Positions 32,889-57,588 of a stretch of 64,000 nucleotides of DNA are shown piece after piece. This DNA comes from a virus. The notes below the pieces were generated by a model that made no database searches, was not told where the DNA came from, and was given only the letters and a program-made list of their open reading frames with translations. The stretch is taken from positions 1-64,000 of the IMG/VR virus record IMGVR_UViG_3300036846_000738. The stretch is one strand, 5' to 3'. The position numbers and the translations under genes were made by a program. Numbering within the stretch: position 1 is the stretch's first letter; every line of letters starts with the position of its first letter.

Positions 32889-34286
32889 TCACCTCACCTC
32901 CATCTGGAACTGTTCGAACAGCGAGCGCAGCTCCAGCGGCGGGCCTTCGCGGCCGTCCGACATGACTGGCACCGCGATGTAGTTGTCGCGGTCGAGCTGC
33001 CATTTCATGATCGTCACCGGAATGCCGGAGGTGCCTTGCAGGCCGCGTTCACCGCGCTCGCCCTTCGGGCCGCTCTTGCCCTGCGAGGCAATCAACTGCC
33101 ACCCGTCGCCCGGACATGGTCCCGGATTGTCGCGCTTGGCGATGAAGCTGCCGCCGTTGAGCGCCACGATGCTCAGCTTGCGATAAGTCGTGGTGTCCTT
33201 GAACAGGCCGCAAATTTCCGGCGAGCGCCCGTCCTCACCATCCGCGCCTGCGCGCGCGATGCAAACCCAGTCCTTGCTGCTGACCGGCGCGTCCGCCGTG
33301 TCGCGCACCGCCTGATAGGTGGCACCGCCATCGGTCACCACGTCGTTGGCGTAGTGAACACCGGGCTCCCAGATTTTGACGCGCGGGAGCGCTCCCATCA
33401 GGCCGCGCTCGCCCCGCTCACCGGGCTGGCCCGGCTCACCGCGTGCTCCGGGTACCCCCGGCTCGCCACGTAGTCCCATTTTTCCGATCTCGCCGGGCAG
33501 ACCGCGCTCGCCACGTTCACCGCGTTCGCCGCGCTCGCCCTTGATGCTCAATCCTTGCTCGCCGTGGTCGCCCTTCTCGCCGCGTTCGCCGCGTTCGCCG
33601 ACGTCGCCGGGCAGACCGCGCTCGCCTGTAAGTCCGATCGGTCCGGTTGCACCGGGAACACCGGGTGATCCGGGAACACCGGGCGATCCGGGTTCGCCAG
33701 CGGGGCCGGGCTCACCGACGTCGCCGCGCTCACCGCGTTCGCCTGTAAGTCCGATCGGTCCGGCCGCGCCGGGTTCACCAGCAGGACCGGGTTCGCCAAT
33801 GGGACCGCGCTCACCGGCGGGGCCGGGCTCACCATCCTTGCCGGGCTCGCCAGCGGGGCCGGGCTCACCATCCTTGCCATCCTTGCCGTCCTTGCCGGGC
33901 TCGCCGATTGGGCCGGGTGGTCCGGCGAAGCCGGGCGGCCCGAGCGGTCCGGGCTGGCCAGCCGGACCCGCCTTGCCGATCTCGCCCTGCAGGCCACGTT
34001 CGCCGCGCTCACCGCGTTCACCGGCCGGACCAGTCGCCCCGTCGCGCAATTCGGACAGTCGGTCGCCAACCATTTTCTCGACCATGGCGCGCAGCTCGAC
34101 GATCTGCGCACGCAGCTCGGCGATCGTGAGCTTGCCCTGCGTTTCCATCAGCTCGCGCTCGCGCGTCCACTGCTTGCGACTCGACGAAATTACCTGCCCG
34201 AGGGCATCGCGAAGCGCGTCAAGGGTTGCTTCGGTCATGATGGTCTGCGCGGGCGAGAAGGGCTCGATATTCGCTGGCAACGACAT
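32889..34286 (-). CDS. Collagen-like virion protein with CBM-like domain
   Basis: 465 residues. Start chosen at ATG34286 (AAAGGA nine bases upstream), overlapping the portal gene by 68 bases. N-terminal helical segment, then roughly 200 residues of Gly-X-Y triplets rich in GER/GEP/GPA/GDV, then [19 protein letters not shown]... DWVCIARAG, a chitin/cellulose-binding-like (CBM5/12-type) module, a second short [10 protein letters not shown] run and a C-terminal beta region. Position between portal and connector suggests a head decoration or neck fibre that helps adhesion. Confidence 0.85.
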
Positions 34287-35646
34287 CGCTGTAGTCCTTT
34301 GCCGAAGTGGGCGGCTGTGGCAGCTTTGGCGGCGGCTTCTCTGTCGCGGCGCCCGGTGGTTGAGGTGGTGCGCCCGGCGACGCTGGTGCCGCGGGAATAG
34401 CGGCGGCAGCCGACAGCGGAACCACCTGTTGCTGGACGCGGGGTTCGTCACCAAACTTGACCTCGTCCAAACTCTCCGAGGCCCGCGCTTCATTCGGCGA
34501 GAAGATGCCGCCCTGCACCGCGCGCGCCAGACCTTCGATGCGGTCCTTGAATGCAGATCGGAGCAGCGCCTTGGTATCGAACTCGACATACTCGTCGGGC
34601 TGGCCGTCGAGATTGAACAGCAGGCCGAAAGCGTCCTCGATATGATTGAGCGCAAAGCCGAGGCCGGAGGCGACCCACGACTGCATCAGCGCCTCGGTCG
34701 ATCCAAACGGCGCGCCACCAATGCCAAGAATTTGCAGCGGCACCCGGAACGCCAGCGCAATGCGCTGCTCGGTCATCTTCATGACCTCGGCCAGCTCGGC
34801 ATCCTTGGGCGCCGTCGATAGCGGCAATGGTTTGAGCCCCGCCGTCAGGATCGGCGTGCCGCCCTGCTTGAGGCCTTTTGATTGCTCGTCCCAGCGGTCA
34901 CGAACAAACTGCAATTGATCCTTGTCGAGTACGAGGTCGGTGCCGAGCACGAACGAAGGTCTCGCTTGGTTCAAGTAGAACGCAAGCTGTTGCGCTGTCA
35001 TCGCCGTCGACGCCGCGATGTCCTGCAGCGCCGCTCCGACCGGAGTGTCGCCAACGAGTGGGAATGGATAGCGGCGCCGGGTCGCGTTCAGCCTGACATG
35101 CAGCACGTCGCGCTGCGGCACCAGCAGTTGTTCCTTGACCTGCCTGTCGATGACGGAATTGCCGCCGAGATAATAAAATACATCGCCGGTGACCGCGATC
35201 TGCGGATGACTCTGGCGCGGGTCCATCAGATGCAATTCATCGATCTCAAAGCGGTCGTTGCGCAGGGCGAGCGCGTAGGCATTGCCTTCCGAGTACAGCG
35301 AGCGCGTCAGGTTCAGCATGAAGTCTGACGGCGACTGGTAGCTGTTCGGGTAGCGCAGGATGCGCGCCAGCGCCGAATTGGTGACGCGATCGCGACCGTT
35401 CTTCTTGTTCAGCCGCCAATGATCACCGGGGCACATCGCCACCGTCTGCGCATAGGCCGACAAACACGCCTCGACCATCGCCGAGCTATCGAGCCCGGTT
35501 TGAGGGACGGTGCCTTCCTGCCACCAATTCCACGGCGATCCGGCGGGCAACCACCCGCCGGTCACCGGGAGATAGTAGGGGCCGGGATTGACCTCGCCCT
35601 CGCCCTTGGTCAGGAGCGGGCGAAATATCCGCGACAGCAAACCCAT
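34219..35646 (-). CDS. HK97-type portal protein
   Basis: 475 residues. [56 protein letters not shown] and [19 protein letters not shown] are portal signatures; [20 protein letters not shown] and [17 protein letters not shown] follow. The C-terminal 60 residues are Pro/Ala-rich and overlap the collagen-like gene in another frame. Confidence 0.95.
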
Positions 35647-36040: not shown

Positions 36041-38290
36041 TCACCAAGTAACGCCAGCGATCCACGCCACGACGCCGGAGCGCCGCATCGTCCAGTTCAG
36101 CGGCAGAATGAGCCGCAACGCCAGCGAGTCGGTCTGGAACATCGACATGGCCGGAGCTGCTACAACTGGCGGAGTGCCAACCGAGGCGAGCTGCAGCGGG
36201 TTGGTGTCTTCCATGTGCAGCGTGGCCTGATCACTGATCTCGAACCGCGGAGCATCGCCCGCGACCGAGACGTAGTCGGCCGCATCAAGACAGATCACTG
36301 TGCCAAGCGGCACCGTGCCGGACTGGATCAGCGGCCTGCCATTCAGTTTGCCCGCGTTGATTTCCTCCCGGAACGGGAACAGCCCGGACGGATTCGGCGG
36401 CTGAATGAACCCGATCGAAAGCGCCTGTTGCGGGTTCATGATGAAGACCATGTTGCGGATGTTTCCGTTGGTGGCCGTCAGAATGGCGCCGCTCAGTTGC
36501 TTGAGATCGCCGACGAGGGCAGCGAAGGCCCCGTTCGTGATCGGCGTGGGTGTCAGACCAGACACGCCGTTGCGCAGACCGGGCGGCCGAATCGCGGTCG
36601 CTGGGTTGACATCGAGCAAGACGGTGTCGATCGAGACCGCGGTGTCCTGCTGAATGGCGTCACGCAGCAGTCCTTCAATGGCGGGCACAGAGTGCTCATC
36701 CATCTCCCTAGTCCACGTCGATATGACGGCCATTTTCTTGGGCGTCAGCGTCTGGCTGGCGAACCCCGCCTGACGCACCGGAATCGGCGCGCCTTCGCCG
36801 ACGAACGATCCGGCGACGGTGGGGGTCAGATTGCGGGTCGGAATGATGATCCGACCATTGCGCCCGAAGCTGAGCTTCAGCCCCAGCGCCGACAGCGACG
36901 GGAAAACCGAAGCCGGGAGCAGGGTCGGCATCAGATCGGTGACAATCTGCTGCACCAGTTCCGCGGCCCAGCCCGAGACCGTGGTCATCGCCGGAGCGGA
37001 TGCCGCTTTCAGGGTCAGGTCGCAAACCGCCTTGGTGGCTTCGTCGTCGCCATAGATTTTCTGGCGGGCTTCGTCGATCGAGACGTTCATCGAGCGCGCC
37101 ATCGCGCGAACGGTGCCCGCCCGAACCAGAAACTCAAGCGGCTCCAACTTCTTCGGCGGCAGACTGAACGGCCGACGCTCGCCGTTCCGGAGGACGACGC
37201 TGTGGGTCGGCTGATGCTCATCGTCTTCGATGGATTTCGCCGCCCGGAGTTCGGATTGCTTCAGCGTGGTGTAGAGTTCGTCCTGATCGGCAATCCTCTT
37301 GTTGATTTCCTTGGTGGTTTCGAGATCGGCGTCGGTGACGTTGGCATCGTCAACCGCTTCCAGATGCGCCATCAACTGATCGCGCAATTGGACTAGCCGC
37401 TGTTCGCATTCCTGTATTCTTTTCGTGAGGGGTGACATTGTCCTGTTCTTTCTGACAGGAGACGTTTCGGCTTGCCCGCCGTTCGAACCGCGGCGACCGA
37501 CGACGCTTAGGTCTTTTTTGTTGCCTTGCTCGGCAAAGACCCTGTCGATGGTGTCACGGGAGATGTTGAGCGACTTTGCAATCGCTAATGCATTCGGATT
37601 GGCCGGGATCGCGACCAGTGAGGTCTCGACCAGTTCGGTTCGCTTGAAGCGCAGACCGTCGCCGTTCTTGGTCAGCGGCTCGGATTGCTTCGGCACAAAA
37701 CCGACCGACACGGCGCGCAGCACGTTCTGCTCGACCAGCGAGATGATCTCGTTGATCCGGGCCGACGTTCCTTTCTTGGCGAGCTGCAGATGGCCGCGCA
37801 GTGCGCCGTTGACGGTCCGCAAATTGCGCCATGTGCCGATCGGGAAATCGCTGCGGTGATTAAACAGCGCCACCGGGTTTTTCTTGAAATTTTCCAAATC
37901 CCAACCCTCGGCCTCGATCACATCGCCCATCCGATCCGGCGTCGCGTCGGACAACACAAATTCGAGACCGTTGCCTTCGGAGACGTGGGTCTTGTGCAGC
38001 ACCGCGCGGGCGCCAGTGCGCTCCTCCCATGCCAGTTGGCAGGCGTCCTCGTCGCCATCTTCGGCCATGCAACGATCCATGAAGTCCTCTTGGCTTTCGT
38101 CATCTTCCGGCGTGCATTGCTTGGTCAGGGCCTTGTCCTTGTTGCGCCAGATGTCGAGACAGATCGCGACCGCCTGATCCTGCGGACGCTTGCTGTCGCC
38201 GGTGCCGATCATCTCGGGCACACACCTCGCGCTGAACTCTGATTGGCTTTCGCCCGGCTTCGGTTTCATTGGCATCGCAAATTCCTCCAC
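36041..38290 (-). CDS. Prohead protease - major capsid protein fusion (HK97 fold)
   Basis: 749 residues. The N-terminal part has ESQSEFSARCVPEMIG and then the HK97-family serine protease with catalytic His in LFNHRSDFPIGTW and Ser in LRAVSVGFVP. After a coiled-coil delta-like segment (QECEQRLVQLRDQLMAHLEA) comes the HK97-type capsid domain (GSFVGEGAPIPVRQAGF, TPKKMAVISTWTREMDEHS). Protease and capsid are usually separate genes; here one open frame encodes both, so self-cleavage must release the shell subunit. Confidence 0.93.
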   Translation of the reverse strand: MEEFAMPMKPKPGESQSEFSARCVPEMIGTGDSKRPQDQAVAICLDIWRNKDKALTKQCTPEDDESQEDFMDRCMAEDGDEDACQLAWEERTGARAVLHKTHVSEGNGLEFVLSDATPDRMGDVIEAEGWDLENFKKNPVALFNHRSDFPIGTWRNLRTVNGALRGHLQLAKKGTSARINEIISLVEQNVLRAVSVGFVPKQSEPLTKNGDGLRFKRTELVETSLVAIPANPNALAIAKSLNISRDTIDRVFAEQGNKKDLSVVGRRGSNGGQAETSPVRKNRTMSPLTKRIQECEQRLVQLRDQLMAHLEAVDDANVTDADLETTKEINKRIADQDELYTTLKQSELRAAKSIEDDEHQPTHSVVLRNGERRPFSLPPKKLEPLEFLVRAGTVRAMARSMNVSIDEARQKIYGDDEATKAVCDLTLKAASAPAMTTVSGWAAELVQQIVTDLMPTLLPASVFPSLSALGLKLSFGRNGRIIIPTRNLTPTVAGSFVGEGAPIPVRQAGFASQTLTPKKMAVISTWTREMDEHSVPAIEGLLRDAIQQDTAVSIDTVLLDVNPATAIRPPGLRNGVSGLTPTPITNGAFAALVGDLKQLSGAILTATNGNIRNMVFIMNPQQALSIGFIQPPNPSGLFPFREEINAGKLNGRPLIQSGTVPLGTVICLDAADYVSVAGDAPRFEISDQATLHMEDTNPLQLASVGTPPVVAAPAMSMFQTDSLALRLILPLNWTMRRSGVVAWIAGVTW

Positions 38291-38336
38291 GCTTTCAGTG
38301 GGTTGGTATCATGTGCGAAAAGTCTGATATGACCCC
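38291..38336 (-). promoter_or_regulatory. Divergent promoter gap of the late head operon
   Basis: A 46-bp gap separates the leftward capsid operon from promoter copy 4. GGAGGAATTT-like bases for the capsid gene lie at its left. The leftward promoter must overlap this gap or the rightward promoter, so the two may be coordinately controlled. No unambiguous -10/-35 pair was found. Confidence 0.35.
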
Positions 38337-45665: not shown

Positions 45666-45705
45666 AAACCTTATTTGCCACAACCCCTTAACCCACGGCC
45701 CATTC

Positions 45706-45742: not shown

Positions 45743-45946
45743 ATGATGACCGCCGAACAATATCGAGCCGCGCTAGAGCGACTGCAAATGACTCAGGTCG
45801 CCGCTGGCGAGCTGTTTCGCGTTGGTGCGCGAACCTCCCGGCGCTGGGCGCTGGACGAGGCTCGCGTTCCCTTCGCCGTAGCCGCATTGCTGCATTTAAT
45901 GCTAAAGAAGCGACTCAAGCCGCGGGATTTACTCGCGCTGGAGTAA
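45743..45946 (+). CDS. Small helix-turn-helix protein (EQYRxAL family)
   Basis: 67 residues (or 66 from the adjacent ATG45746). TAEQYRAALERLQMTQVAAG then GARTSRRWALDEARVPFAV form a one-domain helix-turn-helix, paralogous to the gene at 5444. Location behind a half-operator promoter makes it a candidate regulator of the repeated promoters. Confidence 0.78.
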   Translation: MMTAEQYRAALERLQMTQVAAGELFRVGARTSRRWALDEARVPFAVAALLHLMLKKRLKPRDLLALE

Positions 45947-46127: not shown

Positions 46128-47258
46128 TCACTTGCTCCGCGCGTGCAGCTTCGGCGACGAGCCCATGTTGTCGTAGACTTCCCAGTAATCCATGTCGTTG
46201 CGGTGACTGTCGAAGGTGTGTTCGTTGCTCACCGAACTCAGGGAATATTCCGGCGCCACGAACCGGCCCTTGCCGTTCTTCTCGTTGCCGTGGACGAAGC
46301 GCCCCAGTGCGCGCTCGGCGGCGGTCGCGGGACTGGCGTACATGTAGTGGCCTGAAATCTTGTAGCCCGCCGCCTTGTACTGCGCGATCCGCTTGGCGAG
46401 CGAGGTGTTGCTTTTCAGCGTCGCGTCGACGATGACGTTCAACTTGTTGTCGCGCGCGTACTGTTCCATCACCTCGCCGACGTGGCTCGCTTCCTCGTGC
46501 AGCAGCGAGGCGTTCCAGCCCTTGTATTCCGGCAGGCTTTCCTTGACGTCGTCGTTGTTGATGTACGCCGCCTTGCTGGCATCGACGGTGCCATTTTTGC
46601 CGGTGAACCAGCCCTTGCCGGAGCCGCCCCGGCCGCCAAGAATGTAGAGCGTTGGCTTCTCGCCCGCCGCTGGCGCCGCCGCCTTGACCACTTCCGGCGA
46701 CATCAGCTTGTCGACGATCTGCCGGTGAACCGGCAGACGGTCCGGCGCCCAGTGCCCGTTCGGCAACTTGTAGCCGCCCGCGCTTTGCTGACCGTCGGTC
46801 GGGAAGTCTTCGGACAATTTCTGGCGTGCCGCGGCGTCCTGCTCGCGGGAGCCCGGCACTTTCGCGTAGAGATCATCGAGCGTCACATCCTCGATCTTCA
46901 GCAGCGACGACGCCGAGGTCGGATCGCTGGCATGATCCTCACCGCCTCCGCCACCACCATCGCCGCTACTGAACTGGCCACCTTGCGGGCTGCCGCCGGG
47001 CTCGTGATGCGGATTGAACTTTTGCAGCAGCGCCTGCGACCGGCTCTTGGTGCGCGCCCATTGGCTCTTGAGCCGGGCCGCTTTCTGTTCGGCCTGCTGT
47101 TCGGCGAGCCACTTCGCGCGGTTGCGCGCGCGAATCGGCGTCATGATCTTTTGGTCGATCGGATAGTCGACCGGGCCGATGATCGCCGCGTGCAGATCGG
47201 CGTCCTGCATTGTGCCGTCCTCGTCGAGATAGAAAAATTCCTGACCTTTAGGCGGCAT
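46128..47258 (-). CDS. Zeta-toxin-domain protein, candidate virion cargo
   Basis: 376 residues from ATG47258 (AGGAG seven bases upstream; an in-frame start at 47276 is weaker). N-terminal helical region, then LLQKFNPHHEPGGSPQGGQF and a Gly-rich linker. The C-terminal 230 residues are a zeta-toxin-type kinase: Walker A GGRGGSGKGW, then INNDDVKESLPEY, NVIVDATLKSN and RFVHGNEKNGKG. Zeta enzymes phosphorylate UDP-N-acetylglucosamine. No epsilon antitoxin gene was seen beside it. Placement in the structural operon suggests packaging into the virion. Confidence 0.85.
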   Translation of the reverse strand: MPPKGQEFFYLDEDGTMQDADLHAAIIGPVDYPIDQKIMTPIRARNRAKWLAEQQAEQKAARLKSQWARTKSRSQALLQKFNPHHEPGGSPQGGQFSSGDGGGGGGEDHASDPTSASSLLKIEDVTLDDLYAKVPGSREQDAAARQKLSEDFPTDGQQSAGGYKLPNGHWAPDRLPVHRQIVDKLMSPEVVKAAAPAAGEKPTLYILGGRGGSGKGWFTGKNGTVDASKAAYINNDDVKESLPEYKGWNASLLHEEASHVGEVMEQYARDNKLNVIVDATLKSNTSLAKRIAQYKAAGYKISGHYMYASPATAAERALGRFVHGNEKNGKGRFVAPEYSLSSVSNEHTFDSHRNDMDYWEVYDNMGSSPKLHARSK

Positions 47259-48834
47259 GCTGTCTCCTGCCGACATACTGATCGAAGCGCTTCATGGACT
47301 CCTTGTCCTTCAGATCGAGCACGCCATCCCAGCTCTTGCCCAGCAACAGCTCCTTGCCGCGGGCGGAGTCGGCAATCTTCCAGATCGATTTCGGGTCGCT
47401 GGAGCGCACCGCGGCCAGCAACGGATCGGCTTCAGCCTTCGGCAGCTCCAGTTGCTCCGGCTCTTCCGGCGGCTCAATCGCAATGTCGGCCATGCCGTAG
47501 TCGCGGGCGTGACGCAGCCTCTCGCTGTCATCCATGCTGTCCCAGTATTCGTCCTGATATTCGCTGACGCTGTCCGCCAGATAGCTCGGCGCGTCTATCC
47601 GGGAAGCCTTGTCCTCGGCTTCCTTGTCGAAGGCGGCGATCAGGCGCTTCTCAATTCGCTTGCGCATGTCTTCGGTCAGGCGCTGCGATGGGTCCTCCGG
47701 CTCGATGCCCGGCAAGGTGCCTTGACTCGGATCGTAGCCGACCGGCTCCTTCAGCATGTTGTCGTCGAAGCCGATGTCCGGATCATCCTCGCCGTCGCCC
47801 CTGCGTGAATCAAACGTCAGCTCAACAGCATCGTACAATTGCCTGTTGGTGTACGGGATCGGCGGCTGGCCTTTGTCCTCGCGATATTGCCGCGCGCCGT
47901 CGAGCGCTTCGTTGACCCACGCCGGGACGTCTGCGGTGCTGACTTGGTCGTTGGTGAACTCATCGGCCAGCTCGCGCTTGGCGTCATCCTTGGCCTGTCC
48001 GCTGTCGCGCCAGTTTTGCTCCTCGCTCCTCAAGAACTCATCGTGGCTTTCGCGCATCCACCGATCGCGAACGTCGGACTGCACGTCGCTCGTCAGCATG
48101 TCCCAATCATCGGCCTCGATGACATTATCGCGTGCTGAGCTGCTGCTGCTGCTTTCTCCCGTCAACTTTCGCTCCAGCCCACGCCGCAGCTCCGCCCACG
48201 CCGCCGCCTCGGGCACATAGCCGTACTTCGCCCACGCATAACCGCCGACGTCGATATTGGCGAAGACCTTGACCTTCTCGACGCCAAGCTCTCGGTAGGT
48301 TTCGACGTTGCCCGCGAGCAGGTTCTTGCCGATGTCGGAGCCGCGCGTCGATTTGTCGAGCGCGAAGTAGGCGCTCTTCGCCACCTTGTTGTCGAGATCG
48401 ATCTCGCGGGCGAAGCTGCCGACCGCCGTGCCCGCGTCGGTGCGGATCGAGCCGGTGATCTCGATCGCCGAGCCGCTGCCACTGAGCTTCATCGTACCGT
48501 CGAGGCCGCCCATGAAACTCTTCTTGAACTCCGCGGGGTCTTCGCCGACCTTGTCGTTCCACTTGTCGATGAACGGCTCGATATTGGAGCTGATCATCGA
48601 CAGCTCGACGTCGGCCTTTTCGAAATCCTCCCGCTTGACCTTTTTCTTGCCCTTCGGCTTCGCGGTCGATGTCGCGCCGCCGCCGCCTTCACCGAACTGG
48701 CCGCCGTCCGGGCCGCCTGCGGGCACGCGCGGATGCTTGCCCTCGTCCCATTCTTTCTGCAGCAGTCGGCGCGATCTTGCCTTGGCAATCTGGAAGCGCT
48801 GCGCGGTGCTGAGCTGGGTCTCGTCAAGCCGCAT
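47248..48834 (-). CDS. GNAT-like multidomain protein, candidate virion cargo
   Basis: 528 residues. Near the N-terminus LLQKEWDEGKHPRVPAGGPD then GGQFGEGGGG repeats the tag of the neighbouring zeta protein. Residues of about 60-230 carry a GNAT-fold pattern: YFALDKSTRGSDIGKNLL (acetyl-CoA-binding motif A), then ETYRELGVEKVKVFANIDV and YAWAKYGYVPE. The C-terminal 300 residues are acidic and helical without a known domain. Overlaps the zeta gene by 11 bases. Confidence 0.75.
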   Translation of the reverse strand: MRLDETQLSTAQRFQIAKARSRRLLQKEWDEGKHPRVPAGGPDGGQFGEGGGGATSTAKPKGKKKVKREDFEKADVELSMISSNIEPFIDKWNDKVGEDPAEFKKSFMGGLDGTMKLSGSGSAIEITGSIRTDAGTAVGSFAREIDLDNKVAKSAYFALDKSTRGSDIGKNLLAGNVETYRELGVEKVKVFANIDVGGYAWAKYGYVPEAAAWAELRRGLERKLTGESSSSSSARDNVIEADDWDMLTSDVQSDVRDRWMRESHDEFLRSEEQNWRDSGQAKDDAKRELADEFTNDQVSTADVPAWVNEALDGARQYREDKGQPPIPYTNRQLYDAVELTFDSRRGDGEDDPDIGFDDNMLKEPVGYDPSQGTLPGIEPEDPSQRLTEDMRKRIEKRLIAAFDKEAEDKASRIDAPSYLADSVSEYQDEYWDSMDDSERLRHARDYGMADIAIEPPEEPEQLELPKAEADPLLAAVRSSDPKSIWKIADSARGKELLLGKSWDGVLDLKDKESMKRFDQYVGRRQHAA

Positions 48835-55472: not shown

Positions 55473-56032
55473 CGCAGCTCGTAGACCAGCCACGTCCCGA
55501 TGACATGGATCAGCTCGCGGCCTTCGCGCTTGAGCTGGTGCAGCACCTCGGTGACTTCAACGGTGGGATTGCCGTAGTCGTGCCAGATCACCATGCCGCC
55601 CTCGCGGGTGACCTCGGCGGCCCATTCGCTGTCCTGCCGCACCGCATGCGCGCCATGGTCGCCGTCGATGAACACCACGTCGGCGACGAGCTTGCCGAGA
55701 TCGGTGTCGCGATCGCGCAGCAATAATTTGAAGCGCGGATCGTCCTTGACCAGCAGGCCCGGCGTGGAGGGTCGTTCGATTTGCTGCGCCGTGACCTCGA
55801 ACTGGTATTCGGCGACGACGTCGATGCCGATGTAGCGTTCGATGCTGTCGATCTCGCGCAGCACCGCCTGCGCGGTGCGGCCGACATTGACGCCGATCTC
55901 GACCATCACCTTCGGCTTGACCTGCGCCAGCAGCGTGAGCAGCACCTCCTGCTCGCCGGGCTGCATGTAGGGGCGCGCCGTGCCGCTGCCGTTGATTCCA
56001 AGATCGCCCTTGGTGGTGGAGTTGAGGATCAC
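55469..56032 (-). CDS. Class I SAM-dependent methyltransferase
   Basis: 187 residues starting at GTG56032. The SAM-binding motif VMVEIGVNVGRTAQAVL followed by YIGIDVV and ADVVFIDGDHGAHAV fits the Methyltransf_24/cephalosporin-hydroxylase-like class. Substrate unknown; the neighbouring glycosyltransferase suggests sugar or fibre modification. Overlaps the terminase stop by one base. Confidence 0.84.
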   Translation of the reverse strand: MILNSTTKGDLGINGSGTARPYMQPGEQEVLLTLLAQVKPKVMVEIGVNVGRTAQAVLREIDSIERYIGIDVVAEYQFEVTAQQIERPSTPGLLVKDDPRFKLLLRDRDTDLGKLVADVVFIDGDHGAHAVRQDSEWAAEVTREGGMVIWHDYGNPTVEVTEVLHQLKREGRELIHVIGTWLVYELR

Positions 56033-57588
56033 TAGCCGATGATGGTGGAAACGTCGACCGGCCGTACCTGCTGGGCGACCCCGATCGCCATCGCCAGTGC
56101 GACGAGGCCGTCGATCCGGCCCGAGCTTTTGTTCTTGCTGAGACGGCGGTTGGCGTCATCCTTGCCCTCGACCACCGCGCAGGCCGCGCACATCGCCAGC
56201 ACCGGGTGATCGCCATGGGCGATCAGCTTGTCGCGCAGCAGCTCCTCCAGACTGCGCAGCGCCGGGCTCATCGACTGGGTGCCCTGCCCGAACTCGACGA
56301 AGCGGTCCTCGATCATGTTGGCGCCGAAGCCCGCCTTCTCCAGCCACGGCTTCAAGTGCGTCATGTTCCAGCGATCGAACGCCAGCTTGCGGATGTTGTA
56401 CTTGTCGAACAGGTCACGAAGAATGTGCGCGACGTATTCGTACTTGATCGAGGAGCCGTCAGTGGTCTGCAGCAGGCCCTTGTCGGCCCACATGTCATAC
56501 GGCACCCGATCGAGCCGGGCCTTCTCGACCAGACCGTCCTTTGGCAGCCAGAACGTCGGATGGACGTGCCATGTCTTGCCGCCGTCGGGCTGGCCGATCA
56601 GCACCAGCGCGGTGAGGTCGGCGACGCTCGACAGATCGAGCCCGGCATAGAGCGGGGTGGTCGAGGCGAACGGCAGCGGCTTGGCACCGCAGGCCTTCCA
56701 GATCGAGGGCGACACAAACGGGTTCGAGGCCTCGACCCGCTGGTTCAAAACCAGATTGCGAAACTCGGCCTCGCGCGACGGCAGCCGCCGGGCGTCGTGG
56801 GCCATCGCCAGCACTTCGGCCTTGTTCATGAAAATGTTCAGCGCCGGGTTGGCCTTGGCGATCGTCGCCTCGATCAGCGGATCATCGTCCATCGGCGCCG
56901 TGTTGAAGCGCAGCACCGTGCGCGGATCGGCGCCCGACAGCGCGTCGTCGATCAGCATCGACAACAGGTCGCTGTCGCTCGGCGCCTGCGTCGAGATCAC
57001 CACGGTCAGCGGCTCTTCCTGCGCCGCGGTCGCGGTCTCCATCGCCTCGTACAGCGGAAAGCGCGGCCCCCTCACCTGCCCGAGTTCGTCATGGATCGTC
57101 AGCACCGGCGACAGACCGAACGCGGTGGTGGTCTCCGCGCTCAGCGCCTTGTACGAGGTGCCGACGCCCGGACACTGCAGCTCCTTGGCGCTCTCCCTGA
57201 TCTTGACCACCCGCCGCAGCACCGGCGACAGCCGCACCATCTTGCTCGCCAGCCGGAAGATGATCCCGGCCTGATCGCGGCTCTGCGCGCAGGAATAGAT
57301 CGTGCCATTCGGCCGATACTCCGGCCCGCACAGATGCAGCAGCACGATCGAGGCGCACTCGACCGACTTGGCGTTCTTGCGCCCGCGCGAGATGATCGCC
57401 CGCCGCGTCCCGGCCGGGTTGCCGTAGATCGCGCGAAAGTCGTCCTTCATGAACTCGGCCATCCGCATCGGCTTGCCGACGTCCTTGCCCTCGGGCAGGA
57501 ACAGAAACCGCTCACACCACTCGATGTTCTCCTCGGCGCGCTCCGCCGGGATGCCGCGGTCCCAGACCCGCTCGCGGGTTTCGCTCAT
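56032..57588 (-). CDS. terL: Terminase large subunit
   Basis: 518 residues. Walker A in IISRGRKNAKSVECA, Walker B VLTIHDELGQ, coupling region TVVISTQAPSDSD, and the nuclease part begins PLYAGLDLSSVADLTALV with later Asp in KLAFDRWNMTHL. This is the HK97-type TerL that packages DNA into the prohead. Starts in the ATGA overlap with the small subunit. Confidence 0.95.
   Translation of the reverse strand: MSETRERVWDRGIPAERAEENIEWCERFLFLPEGKDVGKPMRMAEFMKDDFRAIYGNPAGTRRAIISRGRKNAKSVECASIVLLHLCGPEYRPNGTIYSCAQSRDQAGIIFRLASKMVRLSPVLRRVVKIRESAKELQCPGVGTSYKALSAETTTAFGLSPVLTIHDELGQVRGPRFPLYEAMETATAAQEEPLTVVISTQAPSDSDLLSMLIDDALSGADPRTVLRFNTAPMDDDPLIEATIAKANPALNIFMNKAEVLAMAHDARRLPSREAEFRNLVLNQRVEASNPFVSPSIWKACGAKPLPFASTTPLYAGLDLSSVADLTALVLIGQPDGGKTWHVHPTFWLPKDGLVEKARLDRVPYDMWADKGLLQTTDGSSIKYEYVAHILRDLFDKYNIRKLAFDRWNMTHLKPWLEKAGFGANMIEDRFVEFGQGTQSMSPALRSLEELLRDKLIAHGDHPVLAMCAACAVVEGKDDANRRLSKNKSSGRIDGLVALAMAIGVAQQVRPVDVSTIIG

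Follow-up and report, generated by a model that had tools for sequence, protein, structure and literature searches.

Encapsulins take up cargo through a loading peptide, a short disordered stretch on a flexible linker that docks enzymes inside an HK97-fold shell. In phage T4, a short conserved address known as the capsid targeting sequence (CTS) is present on diverse defence proteins that reside inside the head and are ejected from it (PMC3012670); how other phages choose the enzymes that enter their heads is largely open. Polyvalent proteins were proposed as an injected class (PMC5512222), and the same source notes fusions of MuF with both zeta and RelA/SpoT domains (Iyer et al.). The payloads of MuF toxins include (p)ppApp-synthetase-type and zeta-type domains (PMC5576092; PMC12226406), and domains of the alarmone-synthetase type are established MuF payloads (PMC12226406).

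In this work we analyzed two overlapping phage genes whose products share a tag ending in GGQF, together with the proteins in which this tag recurs. Capsid targeting and ejected effectors are already known as concepts; what appears to be new is this family of motifs and the range over which it occurs, given that the motif is not described in the open-access literature searched, nor in those parts of the polyvalent-protein and MuF-toxin papers returned by term searches.

Two overlapping genes in a phage head module

The window, that is, the whole stretch of 64,000 nucleotides analyzed, comes from a virus record of 76,615 bases that belongs to a contractile-tailed soil phage. The genes for the terminase, the portal, a protease-capsid fusion and the tail sheath are all on one strand. 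The large terminase (56032..57588, minus strand; phrog_9, E 7e-118) is the upstream border of the module and is 85% identical in L118 and in a prophage of Bradyrhizobium sp. SRL28 (L149) that is syntenic with the head module of the window. The two tagged genes follow, on the same strand, between the terminase and the genes for the fusion and the portal, and therefore lie within the head and packaging module. The next head gene in this direction encodes an untagged fusion of prohead protease and major capsid protein (36041..38290, minus strand; phrog_617, phrog_80; PF04586), and the portal protein is also untagged (34219..35646, minus strand; phrog_12, E 2.9e-74; PF04860, E 9.9e-66); each of these two proteins is 78% identical in the SRL28 prophage. 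Two other features of the region were recorded. Between 38327 and 43215 seven close copies of CTTGACRTATAGGCCNNAATGGCCTAYAT (at 38336, 39483, 39730, 40750, 42068, 42646 and 43158, with a degenerate copy at 45705) precede small plus-strand genes; this sequence includes a −35-like TTGACA and, in the spacer, the palindrome TAGGCC..GGCCTA, and resembles a promoter set under one repressor. Between 49225 and 51774 there is an ORF of 849 aa without a PHROG match, which consists of a long series of LAATEAADTAAxxG-type repeats.

The tagged genes encode a zeta-toxin-type kinase of 382 aa (46128..47276, minus strand) and a GNAT-like protein of 528 aa (47248..48834, minus strand), and overlap by 29 nt; the coordinates, the adjacency and the overlap given in an earlier sequence-only reading of this DNA were all correct, as was its naming of the kinase, since the Pfam search assigns a zeta domain (PF06414) at E 1e-24 (87.5 bits against a cut-off of 22.3). 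The kinase domain spans residues 202-350 (46227..46673, minus strand), and in the PDB profile alignment both its Walker A motif, GGRGGSGK, and the Asp that aligns with that of DNDTFK in zeta are kept. A profile of the orthologues matches the zeta toxin, PezT, Pnkp1 and the effector AvrRxo1 in the PDB; given the presence of AvrRxo1 among these matches, homology does not fix the substrate of the kinase. No gene for an epsilon- or PezA-like antitoxin was recognized by eye among the ORFs of the window. When cultured phages were searched, the sole matches to the zeta protein were in haloviruses and the GNAT-like protein had none.

For the GNAT-like protein, the designation in the earlier reading holds for the predicted fold and lacks support from Pfam. 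The AlphaFold2 model of approximately residues 76-225 (48160..48609, minus strand) has a pLDDT mostly of 60-90, and the top PDB matches that Foldseek retrieves for it are essentially all from GNAT acetyltransferases, with a probability of 1.00 and a best E of 3e-3. In contrast, there is no Pfam GNAT match even at E 1, and the best hit in the PDB profile search, also an acetyltransferase, has an E value of 0.15; we therefore name the protein GNAT-like by its fold only. Orthologues are present in L118 (64% identity) and in the SRL28 prophage (57%), and also in L002, L089, L093, L103, L014 and L052. An acidic helical domain lacking a Pfam name follows at approximately residues 240-450 (47485..48117, minus strand), and by tblastn it recurs in about ten other phage proteins, all of them tagged (L087, L023, L098, L012, L100, L003, L040, L025, L011 and L096).

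A GGQF motif on head proteins and candidate ejected enzymes

In both proteins the order LLQK, GGQF tag, Gly-rich linker is present as had been proposed. The GNAT-like protein reads LLQK-EWDEGKHPRVPAGGPDGGQF-GEGGGG, and its tag, WDEGKHPRVPAGGPDGGQF (residues 29-47; 48694..48750, minus strand), is of a long form that an HMM of the tag detects at E 1.1e-12. It lies in a region, residues 1-62, that AlphaFold2 predicts to be disordered (pLDDT approximately 27-41), and in the alignment of the orthologues the columns E31, H34-R36, P38-G40 and G44-F47 are at least 90% conserved. The zeta protein reads LLQK-FNPHHEPGGSPQGGQF-SSGDGGGGGG, and its tag (residues 87-102; 46971..47018, minus strand) is a shorter-spaced variant without HPR; the same short spacing is found in L038, L116 and L120.

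The degenerate consensus of the long form is [W/F][D/N]ExxHPRxPxGxxxGGQF followed by a Gly-rich linker. An exact DNA pattern for HPRxxxGxxxGGQF, used to scan the viral contigs of IMG/VR, matched at least 120 stretches, against 3 in the whole collection for the reversed pattern; the forward count is a lower bound, and the counts are no census, as the searches were seeded with one motif spacing. Among the 114 tags in the matches listed, W or F is present at position −5 in 96%, which the pattern did not impose, E at −3 in 76% and P at +4 in 68%, and a Gly-rich run follows. The third codon positions of the tags vary freely, and hence selection acts on the peptide. For the same reason, and given that the same residues are coded differently, a mobile DNA insertion similar to the palindromic elements was discarded as the origin of the motif.

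At the site of the tag the zeta orthologues have NPHHEPGGSPQGGQF (window), HPREPAGGPGGGQF (L008), HPRDEHGRW (L103) and HPRDEEGKF (L002), and among the GNAT orthologues QPRDEDGKW replaces the GGQF form in L052. As judged from these aligned sites, the orthologues show GGQF to be interchangeable with a short form, HPRDxxG[R/K][F/W], and the tag is a family of motifs. The short form HPRDxxGRW is common on its own, in 96 stretches; 52 of the 108 matches to it have W, F or Y at position −5 or −4. With a general pattern, 153 viral records yield 265 tags; in 62 of these records there are at least two, and in one there are 12. In a phage record of 87,892 bases (L269/L305/L332), 12 short-form tags of the type LHPRDRxGRW are distributed over several large ORFs.

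The tagged proteins align with each other on the tag alone (mean column identity 5-6%). A Pfam tally of 113 tagged proteins that are not near-identical, in which the 25 commonest families of each tally were considered and rarer categories could exist, includes on the head side the S78 prohead protease, several families of portals, capsids and MuF. On the side of the enzymes it includes ADP-ribosyltransferases (ART), zeta, 2'-5' ligase/2H, NUDIX, inorganic pyrophosphatase (InPase), topoisomerase IB (TopIB), GNAT, SNF2, LPD1 and a weak match to an anthrax-lethal-factor-like (ATLF) peptidase. By their domain assignments, the annotated tagged proteins are mostly head proteins or enzymes of classes already proposed as head-packaged effectors (PMC5512222 and PMC9503650). 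The tag is a modular element; the architectures include portal-TAG-PG_binding-MuF (L078), portal-InPase-TAG (L036), portal-TAG (L003 and L117), ATLF metallopeptidase-TAG-protease-capsid (L009), TopIB-NUDIX-TAG-ART (L020) and TAG-ART-ART (L024). It is a short conserved sequence common to otherwise unrelated candidate head-internal proteins, as a capsid-targeting sequence would be. Matches to PG_binding and "endolysin" PHROGs were considered as counter-evidence and set aside, because in most of the proteins examined this domain lies inside protease, capsid or portal polyproteins.

In the 22 records with a detectable portal, all 41 strong tags are on the strand of the portal, an agreement that is weak when taken alone because most phage late genes share one strand. 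In the same records the nearest tag lies at a median of 6.3 kb from the portal, compared with 12.8 kb when the tag set is rotated (7 of 2000 rotations).

The sequence-only reading depended on the occurrence of the tag in other phage proteins; it is abundant there, on head proteins and on candidate injected enzymes, and the fusions to other toxin domains that it had suggested searching for include those with ADP-ribosyltransferases and alarmone-synthetase-like domains, among others. In other phages, as that reading stated, minor head proteins do have similar motifs; in this phage they do not, since GGQF is present in no other ORF of the 64-kb window. Regarding cultured phages, the short tag gave no match as a tblastn query, for which low-complexity filtering is a possible cause; the tag is absent from the head proteins of phage Mu and from the Gordonia phages GMA6 and DalanDe, and the cultured phages examined offer no proteomic precedent.

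Payload exchange behind the leader and the tag

The zeta protein begins with a leader (EFFYLDEDGTMQDADLH..; 47097..47276, minus strand) that is 54-56% identical over 85-86 aa to proteins of L118 and L149 whose C-terminal part is not a zeta domain. In both, the slot occupied by zeta in the window keeps the leader and the tag and has instead a payload similar to the alarmone synthetase Tas1. The model of this domain, which was predicted from two sequences and has a moderate local confidence, resembles small alarmone synthetases as well as the (p)ppApp synthetase Tas1 (6ox6, E 2.4e-5). In L103 the tag, a zeta domain and a homologous alarmone-synthetase-like domain (40% identity over 209 aa, E 4e-47) are found together. 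This series of exchanges between zeta and alarmone synthetase constitutes a natural experiment within one phage group for which a sequenced lysogen exists.

A gene for an HTH-like protein of 67 aa (45743..45946, plus strand) is convergent with the tagged effector gene, and copies that are 64-71% identical are located beside zeta in L002 and beside the alarmone-synthetase payload in L118 and L149. This gene was considered as the zeta antitoxin and rejected, because it also accompanies payloads other than zeta.

Proposed function and comparison with known systems

On balance, and with some reserve, we favor the view that the GGQF element, a short linear motif of modular use within a disordered tether rich in Gly, places proteins in the prohead of many tailed phages. 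The tag would act in cis where it is built into head proteins (portals, proteases or scaffolds, and capsid precursors), and in trans where it precedes stand-alone enzymes. According to this model, the zeta-type kinase and the GNAT-like enzyme of the window would bind the prohead, enter the head as it is assembled, leave it together with the ejected DNA, and act early on the next host, probably by phosphorylating cell-wall precursors and by acylation, respectively. By analogy with T4, the tag may be removed during maturation. The exchange of payloads behind a conserved leader and tag, and the synteny of the head module, fit a loading tag; the untagged portal and capsid-protease of the window count against this reading. 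If the tags bound a receptor specific to each phage, they would be expected to resemble each other within one phage. For all tags the resemblance within phages is 0.51 against 0.396 ± 0.015, a value reached by none of 500 permutations, in a comparison that the use of two seeding patterns confounds in part; for the long form only, it is 0.513 against 0.482 (32 of 500 permutations). The co-variation is strong over all tags, and the weakness of that within the long form counts against a phage-specific receptor.

The sequence-only reading had proposed a packaging or cleavage tag, and of the two halves of this idea it is loading that agrees with the occurrence on head proteins, the payload exchange and the synteny. 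We consider it unlikely that the tag is a processing site at which the prohead protease, or else an encoded metallopeptidase, would cut polyproteins into their effector, scaffold and structural domains. In favor of such a site, tags lie at domain boundaries, several of them in one polyprotein, and a Gly-Gly followed by a disordered linker would be accessible; moreover, polyvalent proteins often have zincin peptidases (PMC5512222), and some tagged proteins have weak matches to ATLF peptidases. However, in the fusions examined (L009, L047 and L048), in which a processing site would be expected between protease and capsid, the long-form tag is upstream of the protease and capsid parts instead of between them, which makes a role in cleavage less likely; in L009, for instance, the tag is at 809, the protease at 1032-1140 and the capsid at 1415-1599. 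In addition, many tags are near N-termini or before a single payload, and the recognition of W/F, HPR and GGQF over 19 residues would be long for a protease.

A flexible hinge, spread by recombination among the multidomain proteins of phages and having no specific receptor, would account for the Gly-rich flank, the predicted disorder and the very promiscuous domain partners. A hinge would not call for W/F-D/N-E-xx-HPR...GGQF to be conserved among unrelated proteins while the third codon positions vary freely; furthermore, the tag is conserved in orthologues that are 40-60% identical and is enriched on head and injected-effector proteins, and for these reasons we regard this explanation as improbable.

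The pattern matches in bacterial genomes are mostly due to chance and in wrong frames; only about 11 of 119, with W/F and a sensible frame, look real, and a wide cellular use of the tag was discarded on these grounds. Of 100 Bradyrhizobium genomes, two score with the tag HMM, and in each of them a portal gene shares the contig and the strand of the tag. In Cellulosimicrobium sp. Marseille-Q4280 there are 33 tagged ORFs, with the tag mostly near the N-terminus, in approximately 59 kb sampled from two large contigs, and a PF04860 (HK97-type) portal is absent from this genome; it is the one genome that scored out of 31 from its family, the other 30 giving no match. The tags of this array are of the type RVPAGVxTGGQFxTxARxEA (L255, L256 and L257; contigs C9 and C3). 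An ORF of a Methylocystaceae MAG (L200) encodes a P-type ATPase with a clear tag, WIESRHPRAPAGSPEGGQF, and an efflux-adaptor-like region, its translation having one ambiguous residue. Given this array and the ATPase ORF, the motif does not serve as a head signal only. That it binds instead a factor of the host or of the element (a chaperone, the transfer machinery or DNA), in phages and in some chromosomal elements, is suggested by the Cellulosimicrobium array and by a match in an Arthrobacter plasmid that covers only the N-terminal tag region, and is quite improbable given the rarity of true tags in bacterial genomes and the portals that accompany both Bradyrhizobium tags.

Returning to the loading motif, its broadest version, in which a portable family of head-loading motifs serves to load exchangeable ejected enzymes in many tailed phages and has been reused in large chromosomal arrays, is put forward tentatively. 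With a recognizable motif, injected effectors could be predicted among many phage ORFs that are now anonymous; the motif would also be a handle for new toxin and counter-defence domains, and would provide a short peptide for testing the loading of proteins into HK97-fold phage heads.

Like the T4 CTS, the GGQF tag is a short conserved sequence on otherwise diverse proteins, a likeness that we take as analogy and not as homology. In contrast to the CTS, the GGQF tag, whose role in packaging is putative, may be located at either terminus or internally, often in several copies; it is embedded in Gly-rich tethers and is also carried by portal, protease and capsid proteins. With respect to the cargo-loading peptides of encapsulins, the tag differs in sequence and its docking is putative. 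The polyvalent proteins described by Iyer et al. in 2017 (PMC5512222) share with the tagged proteins the ART, zeta, RelA/SpoT, 2H, InPase, GNAT and peptidase domains and the context of head genes. That work, in the passages searched, names domains and fusions, whereas here we describe a linear motif and also stand-alone proteins with a single payload; polyvalent proteins have at least two disparate catalytic domains per polypeptide, and each protein of the window has one recognized catalytic domain. Finally, the MuF polymorphic toxins (Jamet et al. 2017, PMC5576092; Apk2, PMC12226406) resemble the present system in having a head-linked carrier and exchangeable toxic payloads; unlike them, both proteins of the window lack the MuF domain (PF04233) in Pfam searches, and the carrier would be a motif of 16-19 residues together with a leader.
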